DNA of 55,879 bases from Bacillota bacterium (GTDB taxonomy: Bacteria; Sysuimicrobiota; Sysuimicrobiia; Sysuimicrobiales; Segetimicrobiaceae): contig JAJPJJ010000123.1 of the NCBI GenBank assembly GCA_021324295.1, positions 1-55,879 of the forward strand, written 5' to 3'. Positions 12,174-19,566 of the stretch are shown in pieces. Position numbers and translations under genes: made by a program. Positions within the stretch are counted from its first letter, which is position 1, and every line of letters starts with the position of its first letter. The notes beneath the pieces were generated by a model that did no database searches, was not told where the DNA came from, and was given only the letters and a program-made list of their open reading frames with translations.

Positions 12174-14048
12174 ATGATCGTCAACCAGATGAAGCTGCTG
12201 GTCGGCGGCGTGCAGCTCCGAGACGGCGTGTCCACGATCACGGACATCGTCGGCCGGATCCTCACGCGGTGCGGGCTCCACGTGATGGGCGTGGAACGCG
12301 GGTTTGCCTCGACGATCTACGGCGCCCACCAGTACGATCCCCTGATGATCACGGCGGCGCCGGCGCTGTCCTGGGGCGATGAAGCGATCGACATCCTGGT
12401 GGGGCTCGAGTACGATGCCAACCCGGATGCGCCCGAGCAGCCGAACCGCGACACGATCCTGCGCCACGCCCGCCACCTGGTGGACGGCGGCGTCCTCCTC
12501 TACGACAGCTCGAGCGGCCCGGTGCCCACCGATGACCTGGAATCCCGCGGCGTGCGGGTGTTCCCGATCCCGGCGCGCCAGATCGCGCAGCGCGACCTCA
12601 AGAAGGAGGTCGTGAAGAACGTGGTCATGACCGGGGCGCTGTTCCGGCTGCTGGAGTTCGACCAGGACGAACAGCAGCTCCGGCGGCTCCTCGAGCAGCG
12701 GTTCGGCCGCAAGGGGCCGGCGCTCGTCGACCTCAACCTCGAGGCGGCCCGGCGGGGGCGGGCGGTCGTCGAGCAGGTCCTGCGGGAGCGGGGCTGGACG
12801 TCGGTCGGCTACCGGCTGGAGGCGGTGCCCGGCGCGCCCGCGCGCGTCTACATCGGCGGCAACGAGGCGCTGTCGATCGCCGCGATCCAGGCCGGCGTGC
12901 GCTTCTACGCCGGGTACCCGATCACGCCCGCATCCTCGATCCTGGAGTTCATGGAGGCGCATCTGCCGCGCTACGGCGGTCGCGCGCTGCAGGGCGCCAA
13001 CGAGCGCGAGTCGATCCGAGCGGCGCTCGGCGCCAGCGCGACCGGGGTGCTGAGCATGGTGGGGACGAGCGGGCCCGGGCTCTCGCTCAAGGTGGAGGAG
13101 CTCGGGGTGGCGGGGATCACCGAGACGCCGCTCGTGATCGTCGACGCGATGCGGGCGGGGCCGTCGACCGGGATGCCGACCAAGGCCGAGCAGGGCGACC
13201 TGTTCCTCGTGACGACCGGCGGCCACGGCGAGATCCCGCGGATCGTGCTCGCGCCCTCGACGATCGAGGAGTGCTACACGCTCATGCTGGACGCGGTGCG
13301 CCTCGCGGACGTCTACCAGTGCCCGGTGTTCTTCCTCACGGACCTCAACCTGAGCGAAGGCCGCATGACGCTGCCGGAAGCGACCTTCCGCGCCGGGCCG
13401 CGCGCCGTGCAGCGATTCCTCGCCACGGAAGCGGATGTCCGCGGGGACCGCTACGCGCGGTACCGGATGACGCAGGACGGCATCTCGCCGCGGCTCGTGC
13501 CCGGCACGCGCGGCGCGGTCGCCAAGGTCAACAGCACCGAGCACGACGAGTTCGGGTTCGTCACGACCGATCCGCCGAAGCGGGTCGCGATGATGGACAA
13601 GCGGATGCGCAAGATGGGTACGTACCTGCAGCGCGACGCCCGGCCGCCGCAGGTGCACGGGATCCCCGGCCGGGGCCCGATCCTCGTCGGCTGGGGCGCC
13701 ACCAAGCCGGCGCTCCTGGAGGCGCAGCGGCGCCTCGGCGCCGAGGGGGTCCAGGCCACGGTCGTGCATTTCACGCACCTGTGGCCGTTCCCGACGCACC
13801 TGGCGAAGCCTCTGCTCGAGGCGGGCGGACCGGTCGTGGTGGTCGAGCACAACTACCTCGGGCAGTTTGCCGACGTGATCCAGGCGCACTGTCTGGTTCC
13901 GACGCGGCGCGTGCTCAAGTACAACGGCCGCCCGTTGTACCCGTCGGAGGTCGTCCGCGCGGTCCACGAGGTGACGCACAACGGGGCCGTGACCGTGCGC
14001 CTGGGCGGCACGGAGCCCGTCATGGTCGAGGTGGGCGTCGATGCCTGA
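12174..14048 (+). CDS. korA: 2-oxoacid:ferredoxin oxidoreductase, fused gamma-alpha subunit
   Basis: KorA oxidatively decarboxylates 2-oxoacids (2-oxoglutarate or similar) with CoA, giving acyl-CoA and reduced ferredoxin together with KorB. The 624-residue chain begins with the gamma domain, about 1-190 (VGGVQLRDGVSTITDIVGRIL). The alpha domain carries the family motif GYPITPASSILEFME (residues about 245-260), then NERESIRAALGAS and GTSGPGLSLKVEELGVAG. CPVFFLTDLNLSEG and the C-terminal transketolase-like part complete it. ATG 12174 follows CCAGGAGG. The stop overlaps the korB start by 8 bases, so the subunits are translationally coupled. The ferredoxin at 29.7 kb is a plausible electron acceptor. 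Confidence 0.93.
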   Translation: MIVNQMKLLVGGVQLRDGVSTITDIVGRILTRCGLHVMGVERGFASTIYGAHQYDPLMITAAPALSWGDEAIDILVGLEYDANPDAPEQPNRDTILRHARHLVDGGVLLYDSSSGPVPTDDLESRGVRVFPIPARQIAQRDLKKEVVKNVVMTGALFRLLEFDQDEQQLRRLLEQRFGRKGPALVDLNLEAARRGRAVVEQVLRERGWTSVGYRLEAVPGAPARVYIGGNEALSIAAIQAGVRFYAGYPITPASSILEFMEAHLPRYGGRALQGANERESIRAALGASATGVLSMVGTSGPGLSLKVEELGVAGITETPLVIVDAMRAGPSTGMPTKAEQGDLFLVTTGGHGEIPRIVLAPSTIEECYTLMLDAVRLADVYQCPVFFLTDLNLSEGRMTLPEATFRAGPRAVQRFLATEADVRGDRYARYRMTQDGISPRLVPGTRGAVAKVNSTEHDEFGFVTTDPPKRVAMMDKRMRKMGTYLQRDARPPQVHGIPGRGPILVGWGATKPALLEAQRRLGAEGVQATVVHFTHLWPFPTHLAKPLLEAGGPVVVVEHNYLGQFADVIQAHCLVPTRRVLKYNGRPLYPSEVVRAVHEVTHNGAVTVRLGGTEPVMVEVGVDA

Positions 14049-14901
14049 GGGCGCCAAGACGATCTGGGACCAGAACGCCACGCCGCGGCACCGCATCCAG
14101 TGGTGCCCCGGCTGCGGCGACTACGCGGTGCTCAACGCGCTCAAGGCCGCACTCACCGCGCTCGAGTTGACGCCGTTTGAGGTGCTGCTCGTCGGCGGCA
14201 TCGGGTGCTCGGGCCAGATCCGCAACTACCTCAACGGCAACTCGTTCTACGGCACGCACGGCGGCGCGCTGGCGTACGCGCTCGGCGCGAAGATGGCCAA
14301 CCCCGAGCTGACCGTGATCGCGCTCGCCGACGACGGCGACACGCTGGCGATCGGCGTGGAGAACTTCGTGCACACCTGCCGGCGCGATCCCGACGTGACG
14401 CTCGTGATCATGGACAACGGCGTCTACGGGCTGACCAAGGGCCAGGACTCGCCGTCGGCGGGGCTCGGCCAGCCCGACTGGGTGCCGTCCGAGGAGCACC
14501 CGCCGTTCCTCGACCCGGTGAAGCTCGCGCTCGCCTCCGGGGCGACGTTCATCGCGCAGTCGTTCTCCGGCGATCCCAAGCACGCGACCGAGGTGCTCGT
14601 CGAGGCCGTGCGCCACCGCGGATTTGCGGTGGTGAACGACTTCTCGCCCTGCGTGACGTACAACAAGTTCAACACCTACGATTGGTTCCGGGCGCACGTC
14701 GAGCCGGTCCCGGCCGACCACGACGTGGAGAGCGCGGACGCGGCCTGGCAGTTGATCCGGGACTTCGAGCGCCGCGCGAAGCTGCCGGTGGGGATCGTGT
14801 ACCGCCACCCGCGCCCCAAGGGCGACGCCCGCCGCCTGCCGATGTGGCCGGCGGAGCTCGAGCGGGTCGACGTCGAGCCGATGCTGGCTGGCCTCCGGTA
14901 G
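14041..14901 (+). CDS. korB: 2-oxoacid:ferredoxin oxidoreductase beta subunit
   Basis: KorB is the thiamine-diphosphate-binding subunit (286 residues) partnering KorA. The N-terminus carries WCPGCGDYAVLNALKAAL. The TPP/Mg site reads ADDGDTLAIGVENFVH, then IMDNGVYGLTKGQDSP; the first Gly of the usual GDGD is Asp here, but the metal-binding Asp and Asn are kept. FSPCVTYNKFNTYDWFR is also typical of the KorB branch. There is no ferredoxin domain, so electrons must leave through Fe-S bound by the CxxC cysteines to a separate ferredoxin. It overlaps korA by 8 bases and ends 4 bases before the FAH-family gene. Confidence 0.93.
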   Translation: MPEGAKTIWDQNATPRHRIQWCPGCGDYAVLNALKAALTALELTPFEVLLVGGIGCSGQIRNYLNGNSFYGTHGGALAYALGAKMANPELTVIALADDGDTLAIGVENFVHTCRRDPDVTLVIMDNGVYGLTKGQDSPSAGLGQPDWVPSEEHPPFLDPVKLALASGATFIAQSFSGDPKHATEVLVEAVRHRGFAVVNDFSPCVTYNKFNTYDWFRAHVEPVPADHDVESADAAWQLIRDFERRAKLPVGIVYRHPRPKGDARRLPMWPAELERVDVEPMLAGLR

Positions 14902-15832: not shown

Positions 15833-18331
15833 CTACTCGGCCGCGCCACCCGGCGCCGACAGCGCGCGCTCCTCCACGTGACGGCCCATCCCCAGCCACA
15901 CCGCGGCGACGCCGAAGCCCGCCGTCGCGCCGAGCGCGATCAGGGCCGTCGGCGGCCCGGCGGCGTCGGCGAGGCGGCCGAAGACGAGCATCCCCACGAG
16001 CGTCGTCCCGTTGATGAACACCTGCCGGCTGGCCATGAGCCGGCCGGAGAGCTCCGAGGGGACGTTGGCGAGGGACAGCGTCGCGTTGGCGATGTACGTG
16101 GAGACGTTCCCCACGCCAAAGAGGAACGCGGCGGCGAGCAGCGCCGGATACCGGGTCGTGGACCCAAAGAGGGCGGTCGCGATCGCAGTGACGAGGAACA
16201 TGGCGGCGACGAAGGAGGTCGTGGCCCACCGCTTCCCCCCGGCGATCAAGACCGTCGCCGCCACGAGCTTGCCGGCCCCGAGCGCGCTGTTGATCGCCCC
16301 GTACGCGACCGCCGAGAGTCCGGCGGCCTTCACCACCATCGGCGCCTGGAGCGCGTCGAACGCCAGCGTCAGGTAGCCGGTCACGGCCAGCAGCGCCAGC
16401 AGGCGGTGCAACGGGACCTGCCAGATGTACCGGAGGCCTTCCGCGATGTCGGCGGAGAGCCTCTGGGGCGGCGCCACGCCCAATCCGGCGCGCCAGGCGA
16501 GCGGCATCAGGCCGACGCAGGCGGCGCTGACGATGAACGTCGCGGCGTCCAGGTAGAAGACGAGATGGAAGCCAAGGCGCAGGACGAGCGCGCCGCCCGC
16601 CACCCCGCCGACGATCTCGGCGACCCGCTGCGTCGTCTGGAACAGCGCGTTGGCCGTGGCCAGCTCGTCTCGCGGCACGACGGACGGGATCAGCGCGAAG
16701 ATGGCGGTGCGGAAGAACACGGTGCCGACGTTCAGGATCACGAGCAGCCCGAACCCCGCCGGGATCGAGCGGGTGAGGGCGAGGGGCAGGGCCGCCACGA
16801 CCGCCGCGCGGCCGATGTCCGTGGCGATGACGACCGCCCGCCGGTCCGTCCGGTCGGCGAGCGCGCCCGCGAGCAGCCCGAGCAGCCCCTGCCCGATCGT
16901 CGCGGCGACGAGCGCCGCGGCGACCATCGTGGCCGACCCGGTCAGCTTGAGGACCCACAGCGTGAGCGCGACGAAGAAAATGTTGTCTCCGACGAAGCTC
17001 ACCATCTCGCCCGCCCACAGGAGCGTAAACGCGGGCCGTCGGAGCAGGGTCGCCCAGGTCGGCCGCGCAGGTGCCTCCCGCGGCGGGCCCGGCATGCCGA
17101 GCGCGGCGCGCAGGGCCCGAACCACCCGGGGATCGAACTGCGTGCCGGCGTGCGCTTCGAGCTCCCGCACCGCCACCGCGGGGGGCCGGCCCGGCCGGTA
17201 GGGCCGGTCCGTGGTGATCGCGTTGTACGCGTCCACGGCGAGGATGATCCTGGAGGCGAGCGGGATGTCGTCGCCCGCGAGCCCCCTGGGATAGCCGGCG
17301 CCGTCGAAGCGCTCGTGGCTGGCCTCGACGATCGGCGCGATCTCGGCGAGCCCCTGGATGCTCCGCACGATGCGCGCGCCCGCATCGGCGTGCGACCGCA
17401 CCACCTCCATCTCCTCCGGGGTCAGCGGTCCTGCCTTGCGGAGCGCCTCCGGCGGCACGACCGTCTTTCCGACGTCGTGGAGGAGGCCGCCGAGGTAGAC
17501 CTTGTGCACTTCGGGCTCGGCCAGGCCCAGCACCCGGGCCACCCGCTGGCACAGCCGGGCGACGGACTGGGAGTGGTCGGCCGTGTAGGAGTCCTTTGCG
17601 TCCACCGCGGCGGCCAGCACCGACACGGCGGCGAGCACCCGCCGCTGCTCCTGGCCCCGGAGGACCCGCGGGAGGTAGAGCTGCAGCGTCGCCGCCGCGG
17701 CGAGCGTCGGGACGAGGAGCCGGTCCGCCGGGGACGGGTCCTGCACGACGGTCCAGACCGTGACGGCCGAGACGACCAGCACGACCACATGGTGGAGGGA
17801 CGTGGCCGCCGCGAGGTAAGAGAGCGCCCGCGACCACGCGATCCCCTCGTCGAGATGCAGCCGCACCGCCATCGCGAGCATCCGGAGCGTCACCGTGGTG
17901 ACGGCCGCCACGATCGCCGCGCCGACTTCGGCGTACGGGCCCGGGATCGGGGCGGCGGCCACGGCTACCGCGGCGGCGGCGAGCCGGATCACCCGGTCGG
18001 CCCCGTCCGTCAGGACCGCCCTGGCCGGCCGCGCAAACAGCGAGGGCACCACCGCGAGCGCCGCCCCGGTGACCGCCGCGGGCCAGCCAAAGAGGACGAG
18101 CGTCGGGATCGTGATCACGCCGGAGAGCGGCAGCTCCCCGATCGGGTCCAGATAGATGGGGAACCGGTCCAGGACGGCCGTGGCGATCGCGACTATGATG
18201 ACCGCGGGGACCTGGGCGGCCGCCGCGATGCGGATCGCCGCCACCAGGATGAGGATCGCGACCGCGCCCAGTATCTCGGGGAGAACGACGCCGCGCTCGG
18301 TCTGCCGGCTCCAGAGGCCGTACGCGGTCAC
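15833..18331 (-). CDS. Membrane HD-GYP phosphodiesterase fused to an MFS transporter
   Basis: A continuous 832-residue chain with three parts. Residues 1-220 are hydrophobic, about six membrane helices resembling a MASE-type sensor. Residues 230-410 are an HD-GYP domain, the c-di-GMP phosphodiesterase family. It has DHSQSVARL at 252-260, the HD pair at 285-286 (GGLLHDVGKT), H314, SHERFDGAGYP at 338-347 and ASRIILAVDAYNAIT. The usual first His of HHE is Ser338. Residues 425-825 are a full MFS carrier of the macrolide-efflux type (FTLLWAGEMVSFVGDNIFFVALTLWVLKLTG, GLLAGALADRTDRRAV, LMASRQVFINGTTLVGML). ATG 18331 overlaps the stop of the preceding HD-GYP gene by 4 bases. c-di-GMP-linked control of an exporter is the obvious inference. 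Confidence 0.88.
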   Translation of the reverse strand: MTAYGLWSRQTERGVVLPEILGAVAILILVAAIRIAAAAQVPAVIIVAIATAVLDRFPIYLDPIGELPLSGVITIPTLVLFGWPAAVTGAALAVVPSLFARPARAVLTDGADRVIRLAAAAVAVAAAPIPGPYAEVGAAIVAAVTTVTLRMLAMAVRLHLDEGIAWSRALSYLAAATSLHHVVVLVVSAVTVWTVVQDPSPADRLLVPTLAAAATLQLYLPRVLRGQEQRRVLAAVSVLAAAVDAKDSYTADHSQSVARLCQRVARVLGLAEPEVHKVYLGGLLHDVGKTVVPPEALRKAGPLTPEEMEVVRSHADAGARIVRSIQGLAEIAPIVEASHERFDGAGYPRGLAGDDIPLASRIILAVDAYNAITTDRPYRPGRPPAVAVRELEAHAGTQFDPRVVRALRAALGMPGPPREAPARPTWATLLRRPAFTLLWAGEMVSFVGDNIFFVALTLWVLKLTGSATMVAAALVAATIGQGLLGLLAGALADRTDRRAVVIATDIGRAAVVAALPLALTRSIPAGFGLLVILNVGTVFFRTAIFALIPSVVPRDELATANALFQTTQRVAEIVGGVAGGALVLRLGFHLVFYLDAATFIVSAACVGLMPLAWRAGLGVAPPQRLSADIAEGLRYIWQVPLHRLLALLAVTGYLTLAFDALQAPMVVKAAGLSAVAYGAINSALGAGKLVAATVLIAGGKRWATTSFVAAMFLVTAIATALFGSTTRYPALLAAAFLFGVGNVSTYIANATLSLANVPSELSGRLMASRQVFINGTTLVGMLVFGRLADAAGPPTALIALGATAGFGVAAVWLGMGRHVEERALSAPGGAAE

Positions 18332-19566
18332 GGCGGGCCTGTGAGGGGGCTGTCGAGATCGCTCGCCGCCTGCAGCAGCGCCGTCACCACGCGCGGGTCG
18401 AGCACCGTGCCCGCGAGGGACGCGAGATACTCGGCCGCCTCCTCGTGCGACCTGGGGCCGCCGAACGGACCGAGGCCGGCGCGGGCCGTGTCGTACAGCT
18501 CCGCAGCGGCGAGGATGCGCGAGCCGAGCGGGATCGCCGCGCCCCTAAGGTGACCCGGGAGCCCCTCGCCGTCCCACCGCTCGTGGTGCCCGCGCACGAA
18601 CTCCCCGATGAGGGGGTCCGGGAACTGGGCCAGCACGCGTCCCCCGATCGCCGCGTGGTGCTCCTCCGGGGTCTCCGCGTCCTGCCCGGCCAGCAGCCCG
18701 ACGTCGTGCAGCAGGGCCGCGAGCCGCAGCGCCGTGAGCCGATGCTCCGACATCCCGAGCCGGCGCCCCGTCTCGGCCGCGAGCGCGCTCACGCGGTCGC
18801 CGTGCTCCCGGGCGCCGGGGTCCGCGCCCTCGAGCGCCCGCACGACCGCTTCCACGGTCTCGTCCAGCATCTCGCGCGACCGGTTGTAGTAGGCGTACTC
18901 CTGGCGGGCCAGCGGCAGCGCGACGACGTACAGGCCGGTGAACCCGAGGCCCGCCCACGTGGTGTCCGCCCGGTCGCTCACGAGCGCCAGCACGACGGCG
19001 AGCGGCGCCGAGAGCAACTGGCTCGGCCACTGGAACGCCATGGTCTGCAGCCACTCCGGCATCAGCGGGCGGCCGAAGCGCGTGCTGCGGTAGGCGGCGA
19101 AGATGGCGGTGTTCGCCGAGCGGTACGTGGCGACGGCGATCGCCGCGCCGAGGATCAGCGGTGCGATGCCCCGGGGTGCGGCCGGCGATACGAGCTGCGC
19201 CGCGGCCGCCGACGCCGCGGCCGGGAGGCCCCAGCCCGCACCGTTGATCGCCGCGCGCCACAGCTCGGTCCTGCGGAACGCGAGCAGGCCGATAAACGAC
19301 CCGATCCCGACGCCGAGCAGCACCTCGGGGGGCCTCCACAGCAGCGCGGCGACGATGATCACGCCGATGTTGGGGTCGGTGATGCCGCCGAACGGGCTCG
19401 CTACCGGACGCACGAGCCCGGTCGCCGCGAAGATCGCGGTCAGCCCCGCGGCGACGCCCGGGTCGGTGTGGGGAAGCGCCCACGCGGCTGTGGCCAGATA
19501 CAGGAGGACGCACGCGGCGCAGAAGCGCTGGGTTGCGCGGGGCAGGGCGCCGAAAAGCTCCGGCAT
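18328..19566 (-). CDS. Membrane HD-GYP domain protein
   Basis: This is a 412-residue protein with seven or so membrane helices (residues 12-225) and a cytoplasmic HD-GYP domain (235-400). The domain keeps HD at 287-288 (AALLHDVGLL) and HHE at 327-329 (GHHERWDGEGLP), but the GYP tripeptide is GLP (335-337). The stretch after HD is shortened, lacking the usual K-P-L-E region. Activity on c-di-GMP is therefore uncertain. It overlaps the downstream HD-GYP-MFS gene by 4 bases, so both are made from one mRNA and could form a pair. ATG 19566 has no Shine-Dalgarno sequence on its strand, so the message may be leaderless or start slightly elsewhere. Confidence 0.83.
   Translation of the reverse strand: MPELFGALPRATQRFCAACVLLYLATAAWALPHTDPGVAAGLTAIFAATGLVRPVASPFGGITDPNIGVIIVAALLWRPPEVLLGVGIGSFIGLLAFRRTELWRAAINGAGWGLPAAASAAAAQLVSPAAPRGIAPLILGAAIAVATYRSANTAIFAAYRSTRFGRPLMPEWLQTMAFQWPSQLLSAPLAVVLALVSDRADTTWAGLGFTGLYVVALPLARQEYAYYNRSREMLDETVEAVVRALEGADPGAREHGDRVSALAAETGRRLGMSEHRLTALRLAALLHDVGLLAGQDAETPEEHHAAIGGRVLAQFPDPLIGEFVRGHHERWDGEGLPGHLRGAAIPLGSRILAAAELYDTARAGLGPFGGPRSHEEAAEYLASLAGTVLDPRVVTALLQAASDLDSPLTGPP

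Follow-up and report, generated by a model that had tools for sequence, protein, structure and literature searches.

The gene described in this report encodes, within one polypeptide of 832 residues, a membrane-bound sensor region followed by an HD-GYP domain and a complete MFS transporter. The fusion is maintained in four genera of its family of uncultured bacteria, and outside of this family the same parts are found as separate genes that lie next to one another. Signaling and transport are therefore very likely to be functionally coupled in the fusion and in the gene cluster. The best overall explanation, to which we assign a probability of roughly 0.5, is a single membrane-bound signaling-transport unit in which the state of the HD-GYP domain and of an upstream partner, HD-GYP A, sets the activity of the exporter.

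The Fusion Gene and Its Domains

The fusion gene is located on the minus strand at positions 15833..18331 of the window, by which we mean the entire stretch of 55,879 nucleotides that was analyzed. It begins with a GTG start codon and constitutes a single open frame. The GC contents at the first, second, and third codon positions were found to be 0.74, 0.52, and 0.95, respectively, which is of the coding type and typical of the genes in the window. An antisense open frame of 891 residues runs opposite to the fusion on the plus strand (positions 15878-18553); the very high GC content at third codon positions probably accounts for it, and it is a trap for gene callers.

All parts of the protein are encoded on the minus strand. 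The N-terminal membrane region (residues 1-225; 17657..18331) contains approximately 6-7 hydrophobic segments, as judged by hydropathy only. It is followed by the HD-GYP domain (residues 226-415; 17087..17656), for which Pfam returns HD_5 at residues 238-403 with an E-value of 8.9e-37, and by a linker (residues 416-432; 17036..17086) that differs in length and sequence among the orthologues. The remainder is a DHA3-like MFS transporter domain (TIGR00900/MFS_3; residues 433-815; 15887..17035) with an intact motif A (ADRTDRR) and approximately 12 hydrophobic segments, again by hydropathy only. Pfam places MFS_1 at residues 438-772 (7.7e-28) and MFS_3 at residues 430-809, both above the cut-off, and the NCBIfam model TIGR00900 (H+ antiporter) matches residues 435-792 over the whole of its profile (1-364/364) with an E-value of 1e-51, which is below the curated cut-off. 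The Pfam family MASE9 (PF20972) matches the N-terminal region of 6 of 20 homologues of HD-GYP A and HD-GYP B at E<=0.1, weakly and with a best value of 8.5e-9, and Pfam gives no MASE9 match in the fusion protein from the window. The AlphaFold2 model of the single fusion sequence (pLDDT 41, pTM 0.25) is too low in confidence for the fold to be read.

The original prediction of one frame that carries membrane helices, an HD-GYP domain, and a complete MFS carrier is thus borne out by Pfam, NCBIfam, and hydropathy, and the domain search that it had proposed for the 832-residue protein returned HD_5 together with MFS_1/MFS_3. The HD dyad is at residues 285-286 (17474..17479), where it had been placed, and is invariant across all of the fused and unfused homologues that were compared. 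The predicted SHERFDGAGYP motif is present and spans residues 338-348 (17288..17320) rather than ending at residue 347; S338 occupies the position of the first histidine in the usual HHExxDGxGYP.

Conservation within the Family

The family sample consisted of 12 genomes. Full-length fusions with unbroken frames were found in eight of these, the organism of the window and seven other species, distributed over four genera. The seven other proteins are 47-60% identical to that from the window; by part, the identities are 52-69% for the HD-GYP domain, 54-65% for the MFS domain, and 22-46% for the N-terminal sensor region, which is the fastest-changing part of the fusion. In a ninth genome (G007), a contig ends inside the gene for HD-GYP A, and the fusion gene would be off the contig. 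HD-GYP A and the fused-type MFS were not found in the remaining three family genomes, two of which are 64-68% complete and one of which is in 340 contigs. No separate orthologue of the fused MFS was found in the family genomes, and the fused copy thus appears to do that job. For the closest pair of fusions, the dN/dS ratios for the HD-GYP domain were determined to be 0.05 (NG86) and 0.016 (YN00), and those for the MFS domain to be 0.09 (NG86) and 0.024 (YN00), with the YN00 values calculated for this pair only. These low values indicate that both halves are maintained by purifying selection.

Two genes that resemble, as identified by eye, a two-subunit 2-oxoacid:ferredoxin oxidoreductase are located at positions 12174-14901 of the window. 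This pair is found near the genes for HD-GYP A and the fusion in all of the family genomes that were read, and its orientation differs.

Catalytic Site of the Fused HD-GYP Domain and Its Upstream Partner

The fused domain resembles the HD-GYP phosphodiesterases, of which PmGH (PDB 4mcw) is the example used here, in its HD_5 match, in the HDxGK and GYP motifs, and in most of the metal ligands. The closest relative of solved structure by sequence is 5z7c, a 3'3'-cGAMP phosphodiesterase. The fusion differs from the PmGH-type proteins in having an MFS domain after the HD-GYP domain, a serine in place of H276, and a pseudo-HD-GYP partner encoded upstream.

The metal ligands of PmGH are E185, H189, H221, D222, H250, H276, H277, and D305 (PMC4159591). 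Six of the eight are retained in the fused domain as H253, H285, D286, H314, H339, and D367, together with K289, the GYP motif, and R376; H285, D286, K289, and G346-Y347-P348 are invariant in the eight fusions. At the position of H276, the substitution of which in the PmGH variant H276A leads to an essentially complete loss of activity (PMC4159591), S338 is found in 8/8 fusions, and 10 of the 12 unfused B domains keep histidine. Serine is found in the other two unfused B domains and in one other HD-GYP protein of the family. The equivalent of E185 is Y249 in the fusion from the window, as in most of the relatives, and is tyrosine, leucine, or arginine across the eight fusions. This position is variable among HD-GYP proteins that are active or predicted to be active, and the absence of E185 has been linked to binuclear centers (PMC4159591). 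In three of the fusions, D343 of the HExxDG motif is replaced by asparagine. Hydrolysis of c-di-GMP by the fused domain is possible but not assured; the serine at the position of H276, together with the tyrosine, leucine, or arginine at that of E185, suggests that it may have been lost. The missing ligands lower the claim to catalysis and not the membership in the HD-GYP family. The genome encodes six GGDEF domains, from which it would follow that c-di-GMP is probably made by the organism.

The gene for HD-GYP A (18328..19566, minus strand; 412 residues) overlaps the start of the fusion gene by 4 bases. The second membrane-bound HD-GYP protein that had been predicted upstream is thus present, and its co-translation with the fusion is plausible. 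The protein consists of a membrane region and a degenerate HD-GYP domain, in which the motifs read HDVGL and HHERWDGEGLP and a metal-binding aspartate is changed to glutamate. The same degeneration is found across the phylum. The lysine of HDxGK is replaced by leucine, methionine, isoleucine, or threonine in all aligned sequences; the equivalent of D305 is glutamate in 20/20 complete sequences; and in the family GYP appears as GLP, GVP, GIP, or GAP or is lost. Throughout the phylum, the gene for HD-GYP A usually overlaps that for a more intact HD-GYP B, as expected for translational coupling, and HD-GYP A is probably a pseudo-enzyme partner of HD-GYP B. The original prediction was correct in its reading of the domains and had not recognized either the degenerate nature of this partner or the absence from the fused domain of a histidine that is essential in PmGH.

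It could be argued from these substitutions that the fused domain is no longer a phosphodiesterase and that, with HD-GYP A, it serves as a receptor that binds c-di-GMP or a related dinucleotide. The serine common to all eight fusions at an essential ligand, which most unfused B domains keep as histidine, the degeneration of HD-GYP A throughout, and the asparagine at D343 in three fusions are all in accord with such a role. However, the complete H-HD-H-H-D set has been kept with K289, GYP, and R376, the serine is not confined to the fusions, and six-ligand di-metal sites are known in other HD-domain enzymes. A purely nucleotide-binding function is rather improbable, and it can be compatible with the signaling-transport unit proposed above.

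Separate Genes outside of the Family

The sample of relatives at the order, class, and phylum levels comprised the same 43 genomes. Outside of the family, the parts are encoded by separate genes in the order MFS, HD-GYP A, HD-GYP B, often followed by a gene for an AfsR/SARP-type regulator. An unfused MFS gene adjoins the A-B pair at 13 loci in 12 genomes from four families (G012, G013, G014, G015, G019, G020, G022, G023, G024, G028, G031 (twice), and G041). In 12/13 of these loci, the MFS gene is directly upstream of the gene for HD-GYP A on the same strand with a gap of 180-793 bases; in G012, it is inverted and approximately 5 kb away. The cluster MFS of G015 is a fragment at a contig end. 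The A-B overlap in the clusters is usually 4 bases.

A gene of approximately 1200-1300 codons is located 3' of the gene for HD-GYP B in nine genomes (G012, G013, G015, G019, G022, G024, G025, G028, and G031). These AfsR/SARP-type regulator genes are at L071:7401-11216, L072:6872-10501, L073:3444-7148, L075:7160-10732, L078:4033-7890, L079:4660-8493, L080:2886-6458, L081:2307-6026, and L127:1803-5729. BTAD, AAA_16, TPR, and DNA-binding domains were identified in the one regulator that was scanned, and the others match along its length. No regulator of this type was seen adjoining the fusions. The proposal that a downstream gene for a protein of approximately 1200 residues is a universal member of the cluster was rejected, since the corresponding protein in the family genome G001 is unrelated. 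It is encoded 3' of the fusion (L063:9115-12636) and is a PAS-GAF-SpoIIE-HATPase-STAS protein of 1173 residues, an anti-sigma-type switch in one chain.

No HD-GYP gene was found in the flanks that were read of ten other MFS paralogues in the cluster genomes, and the membrane-bound HD-GYP proteins of G035, G036, G313, and G377 have neither an MFS of the fused/cluster clade nor a second HD-GYP nearby. The cluster MFS is present a second time in G041, as an isolated gene (L082:529-1989) with no HD-GYP neighbors in the stretch that was read.

Origin of the Fusion

The fused and cluster MFS domains form one clade (100/99) in the MFS tree, with the ten other paralogues outside; the lone duplicate from G041 falls within this clade, and the fused MFS domains form one branch (100/100). 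The fused domains (100/95) fall together with the unfused B domains (100/98) in the HD-GYP tree, apart from one long-branched other sequence, and all of the A domains form one branch (100/97). The unfused parts are encoded in a conserved cluster and the trees join both halves of the fusion to them, which makes this a "Rosetta stone" fusion and supports a functional link on independent grounds. The link between signaling and transport that the original prediction had put forward from the fused chain is therefore strongly supported; the two specific forms that it had suggested, c-di-GMP turnover that directly gates the pump and a transporter that works as the sensor, are candidates for the direction of this link. 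Homologues encoded as separate genes, which had been considered evidence against it, are the rule only outside of the family, and there the genes adjoin, which strengthens the link.

Read most simply, the data indicate that genes already adjacent to one another became joined, the MFS gene being shifted from its leading place in the cluster to the 3' end of the gene for HD-GYP B. The split state would be the older one, as judged from its wider spread, the trees being unrooted.

Proposed Mechanism and Alternatives

In the signaling-transport unit that we favor, HD-GYP A would associate with HD-GYP B, or with the fusion, in a hetero-complex, and the MASE9-like regions of A and B would detect a cue in the membrane or the periplasm. 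Binding of c-di-GMP by the HD-GYP core and, where the core is competent, its hydrolysis would set the activity of the attached exporter, and the fusion would fix stoichiometry and place. The N-terminus of an MFS transporter is cytoplasmic, and so the fused HD-GYP core is expected to be on the cytoplasmic side as well. If the two functions are coupled, nucleotide-dependent control of the transporter is the likeliest direction, with a chance that falls slightly short of even; the transporter as an input to the HD-GYP domain ranks second and is a good deal more doubtful, and tethering without allostery ranks last. A narrower proposal is tentative: the fusions would be a new class of one-chain signaling transporter whose MFS exporter is under the cis control of an HD-GYP/pseudo-HD-GYP pair, with c-di-GMP bound or hydrolyzed by that pair.

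The transporter half bears on the reverse possibility, a transceptor. Here sensing would fall to the MFS domain, whether active or inactive in transport, and the conformations that it adopts with its substrate would set the turnover of c-di-GMP by the HD-GYP domain. The fused MFS carries derived residues that would fit a changed role: K688 in TM8 is found in 8/8 fusions, with phenylalanine in the unfused cluster MFS; position 450 in TM1 is E450 or N450, with arginine in the cluster MFS; and the GPxxAG of motif C in the unfused MFS is replaced by GGVxGG/GA in seven fusions and by GGPLGG in G010. Such residues may point to a different substrate or to an altered role, and the loss of the motif-C proline together with K688 implies that transport by the fused MFS may differ from that of its unfused relatives. 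The AfsR/SARP-type regulator in most of the unfused clusters hints at a signaling output. However, motif A (GALADRTDRR) and 47 positions common to the fused and cluster MFS are retained, as in a working transporter, and the N-terminal membrane region already provides the fusion with a dedicated sensor.

A further argument for the transceptor is one of precedent. The CbrA/CrbS SLC5-STAC sensor kinases likewise combine a secondary transporter and a signaling enzyme in one chain, as they are described in PMC7096432, PMC5715377, and PMC13022988, and for CbrA the SLC5 domain is described as transporting histidine and appears to modulate the kinase (PMC7096432). The parts differ, an SLC5 symporter with a histidine kinase as opposed to an MFS carrier with an HD-GYP domain, and Pfam finds only HD_5/HD and MFS in the fusion and no STAC domain, so that the resemblance is one of kind and not of family. 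The transporter comes first in CbrA and the enzyme after it. This domain order is the reverse of that in the fusion and weakens the precedent, and we consider a sensing transporter unlikely, although not markedly so.

Control of the exporter by the HD-GYP pair must also be weighed against simple tethering, in which a phosphodiesterase and an exporter are co-located in equal amounts and serve one pathway in parallel without allostery. The variable length and sequence of the linker favor a tether over rigid coupling, and the genes are separate in most other families, with the 180-793 bases between the MFS gene and that for HD-GYP A, which implies that joining is not required for the function that they share. 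The fusion has nevertheless persisted in four genera, and both of its halves are strongly constrained; tethering by itself is unlikely. Although the separate genes are neighbors in the relatives, an artifact from misassembly, a missed stop, or a frameshift can be dismissed, since eight genomes, each assembled separately, share the junction and the frame is intact in 8/8, which rules out the stop or frameshift near residue 415 that the original prediction had allowed for, and the MFS gene of the relatives is upstream of HD-GYP A and not 3' of HD-GYP B, so that simple read-through cannot give the order of the fusion.

Relation to Known Systems

The MFS half shares its family profile, motif A, and approximately 12 helices with the DHA3-type drug/H+ antiporters (MefA/EntS-like, TIGR00900, PF05977). 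It differs from these in scoring below every NCBIfam transporter cut-off, in being joined to an HD-GYP domain, and in its changed motif-C proline. Transport domains have been reported in one chain with c-di-GMP enzymes, as PTS_EIIC joined to GGDEF, EAL, or HD_5, and such proteins are rare in the census of c-di-GMP architectures (PMC8846402); they contain a phosphotransfer permease, whereas the fusion contains an MFS carrier. No MFS fusion is named in the main text of that census (PMC8846402).

The search for the same HD-GYP plus MFS order, which had been suggested at the outset, recovered the seven other species of the family and no such fusion outside of it in 386 genomes, most of them from outside the phylum, with two candidates scored per genome; an independent and dissimilar fusion could have been missed by a screen of this depth. 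Among the plasmid matches listed by tblastn, HD-GYP or MFS was found alone, and none of these covered 80% of the query. A scan of genome contigs with a single fusion sequence returned only a distant HD-GYP from a Planctomycetota MAG. No description of an HD-GYP-MFS fusion was found in the open-access papers that were searched.

Biological Implications

Transcription, motility, and polysaccharide secretion are controlled by c-di-GMP. If the proposed coupling is correct, a secondary carrier joined to a c-di-GMP enzyme would link the second messenger directly to solute export, or transport to signaling. In the narrower one-chain proposal, the carrier would be under the direct control of c-di-GMP within one polypeptide. 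The fused and split versions of the same parts, with their pseudo-enzyme partner, provide a ready test pair, and the two states are separated by a natural change of histidine to serine in the catalytic center.
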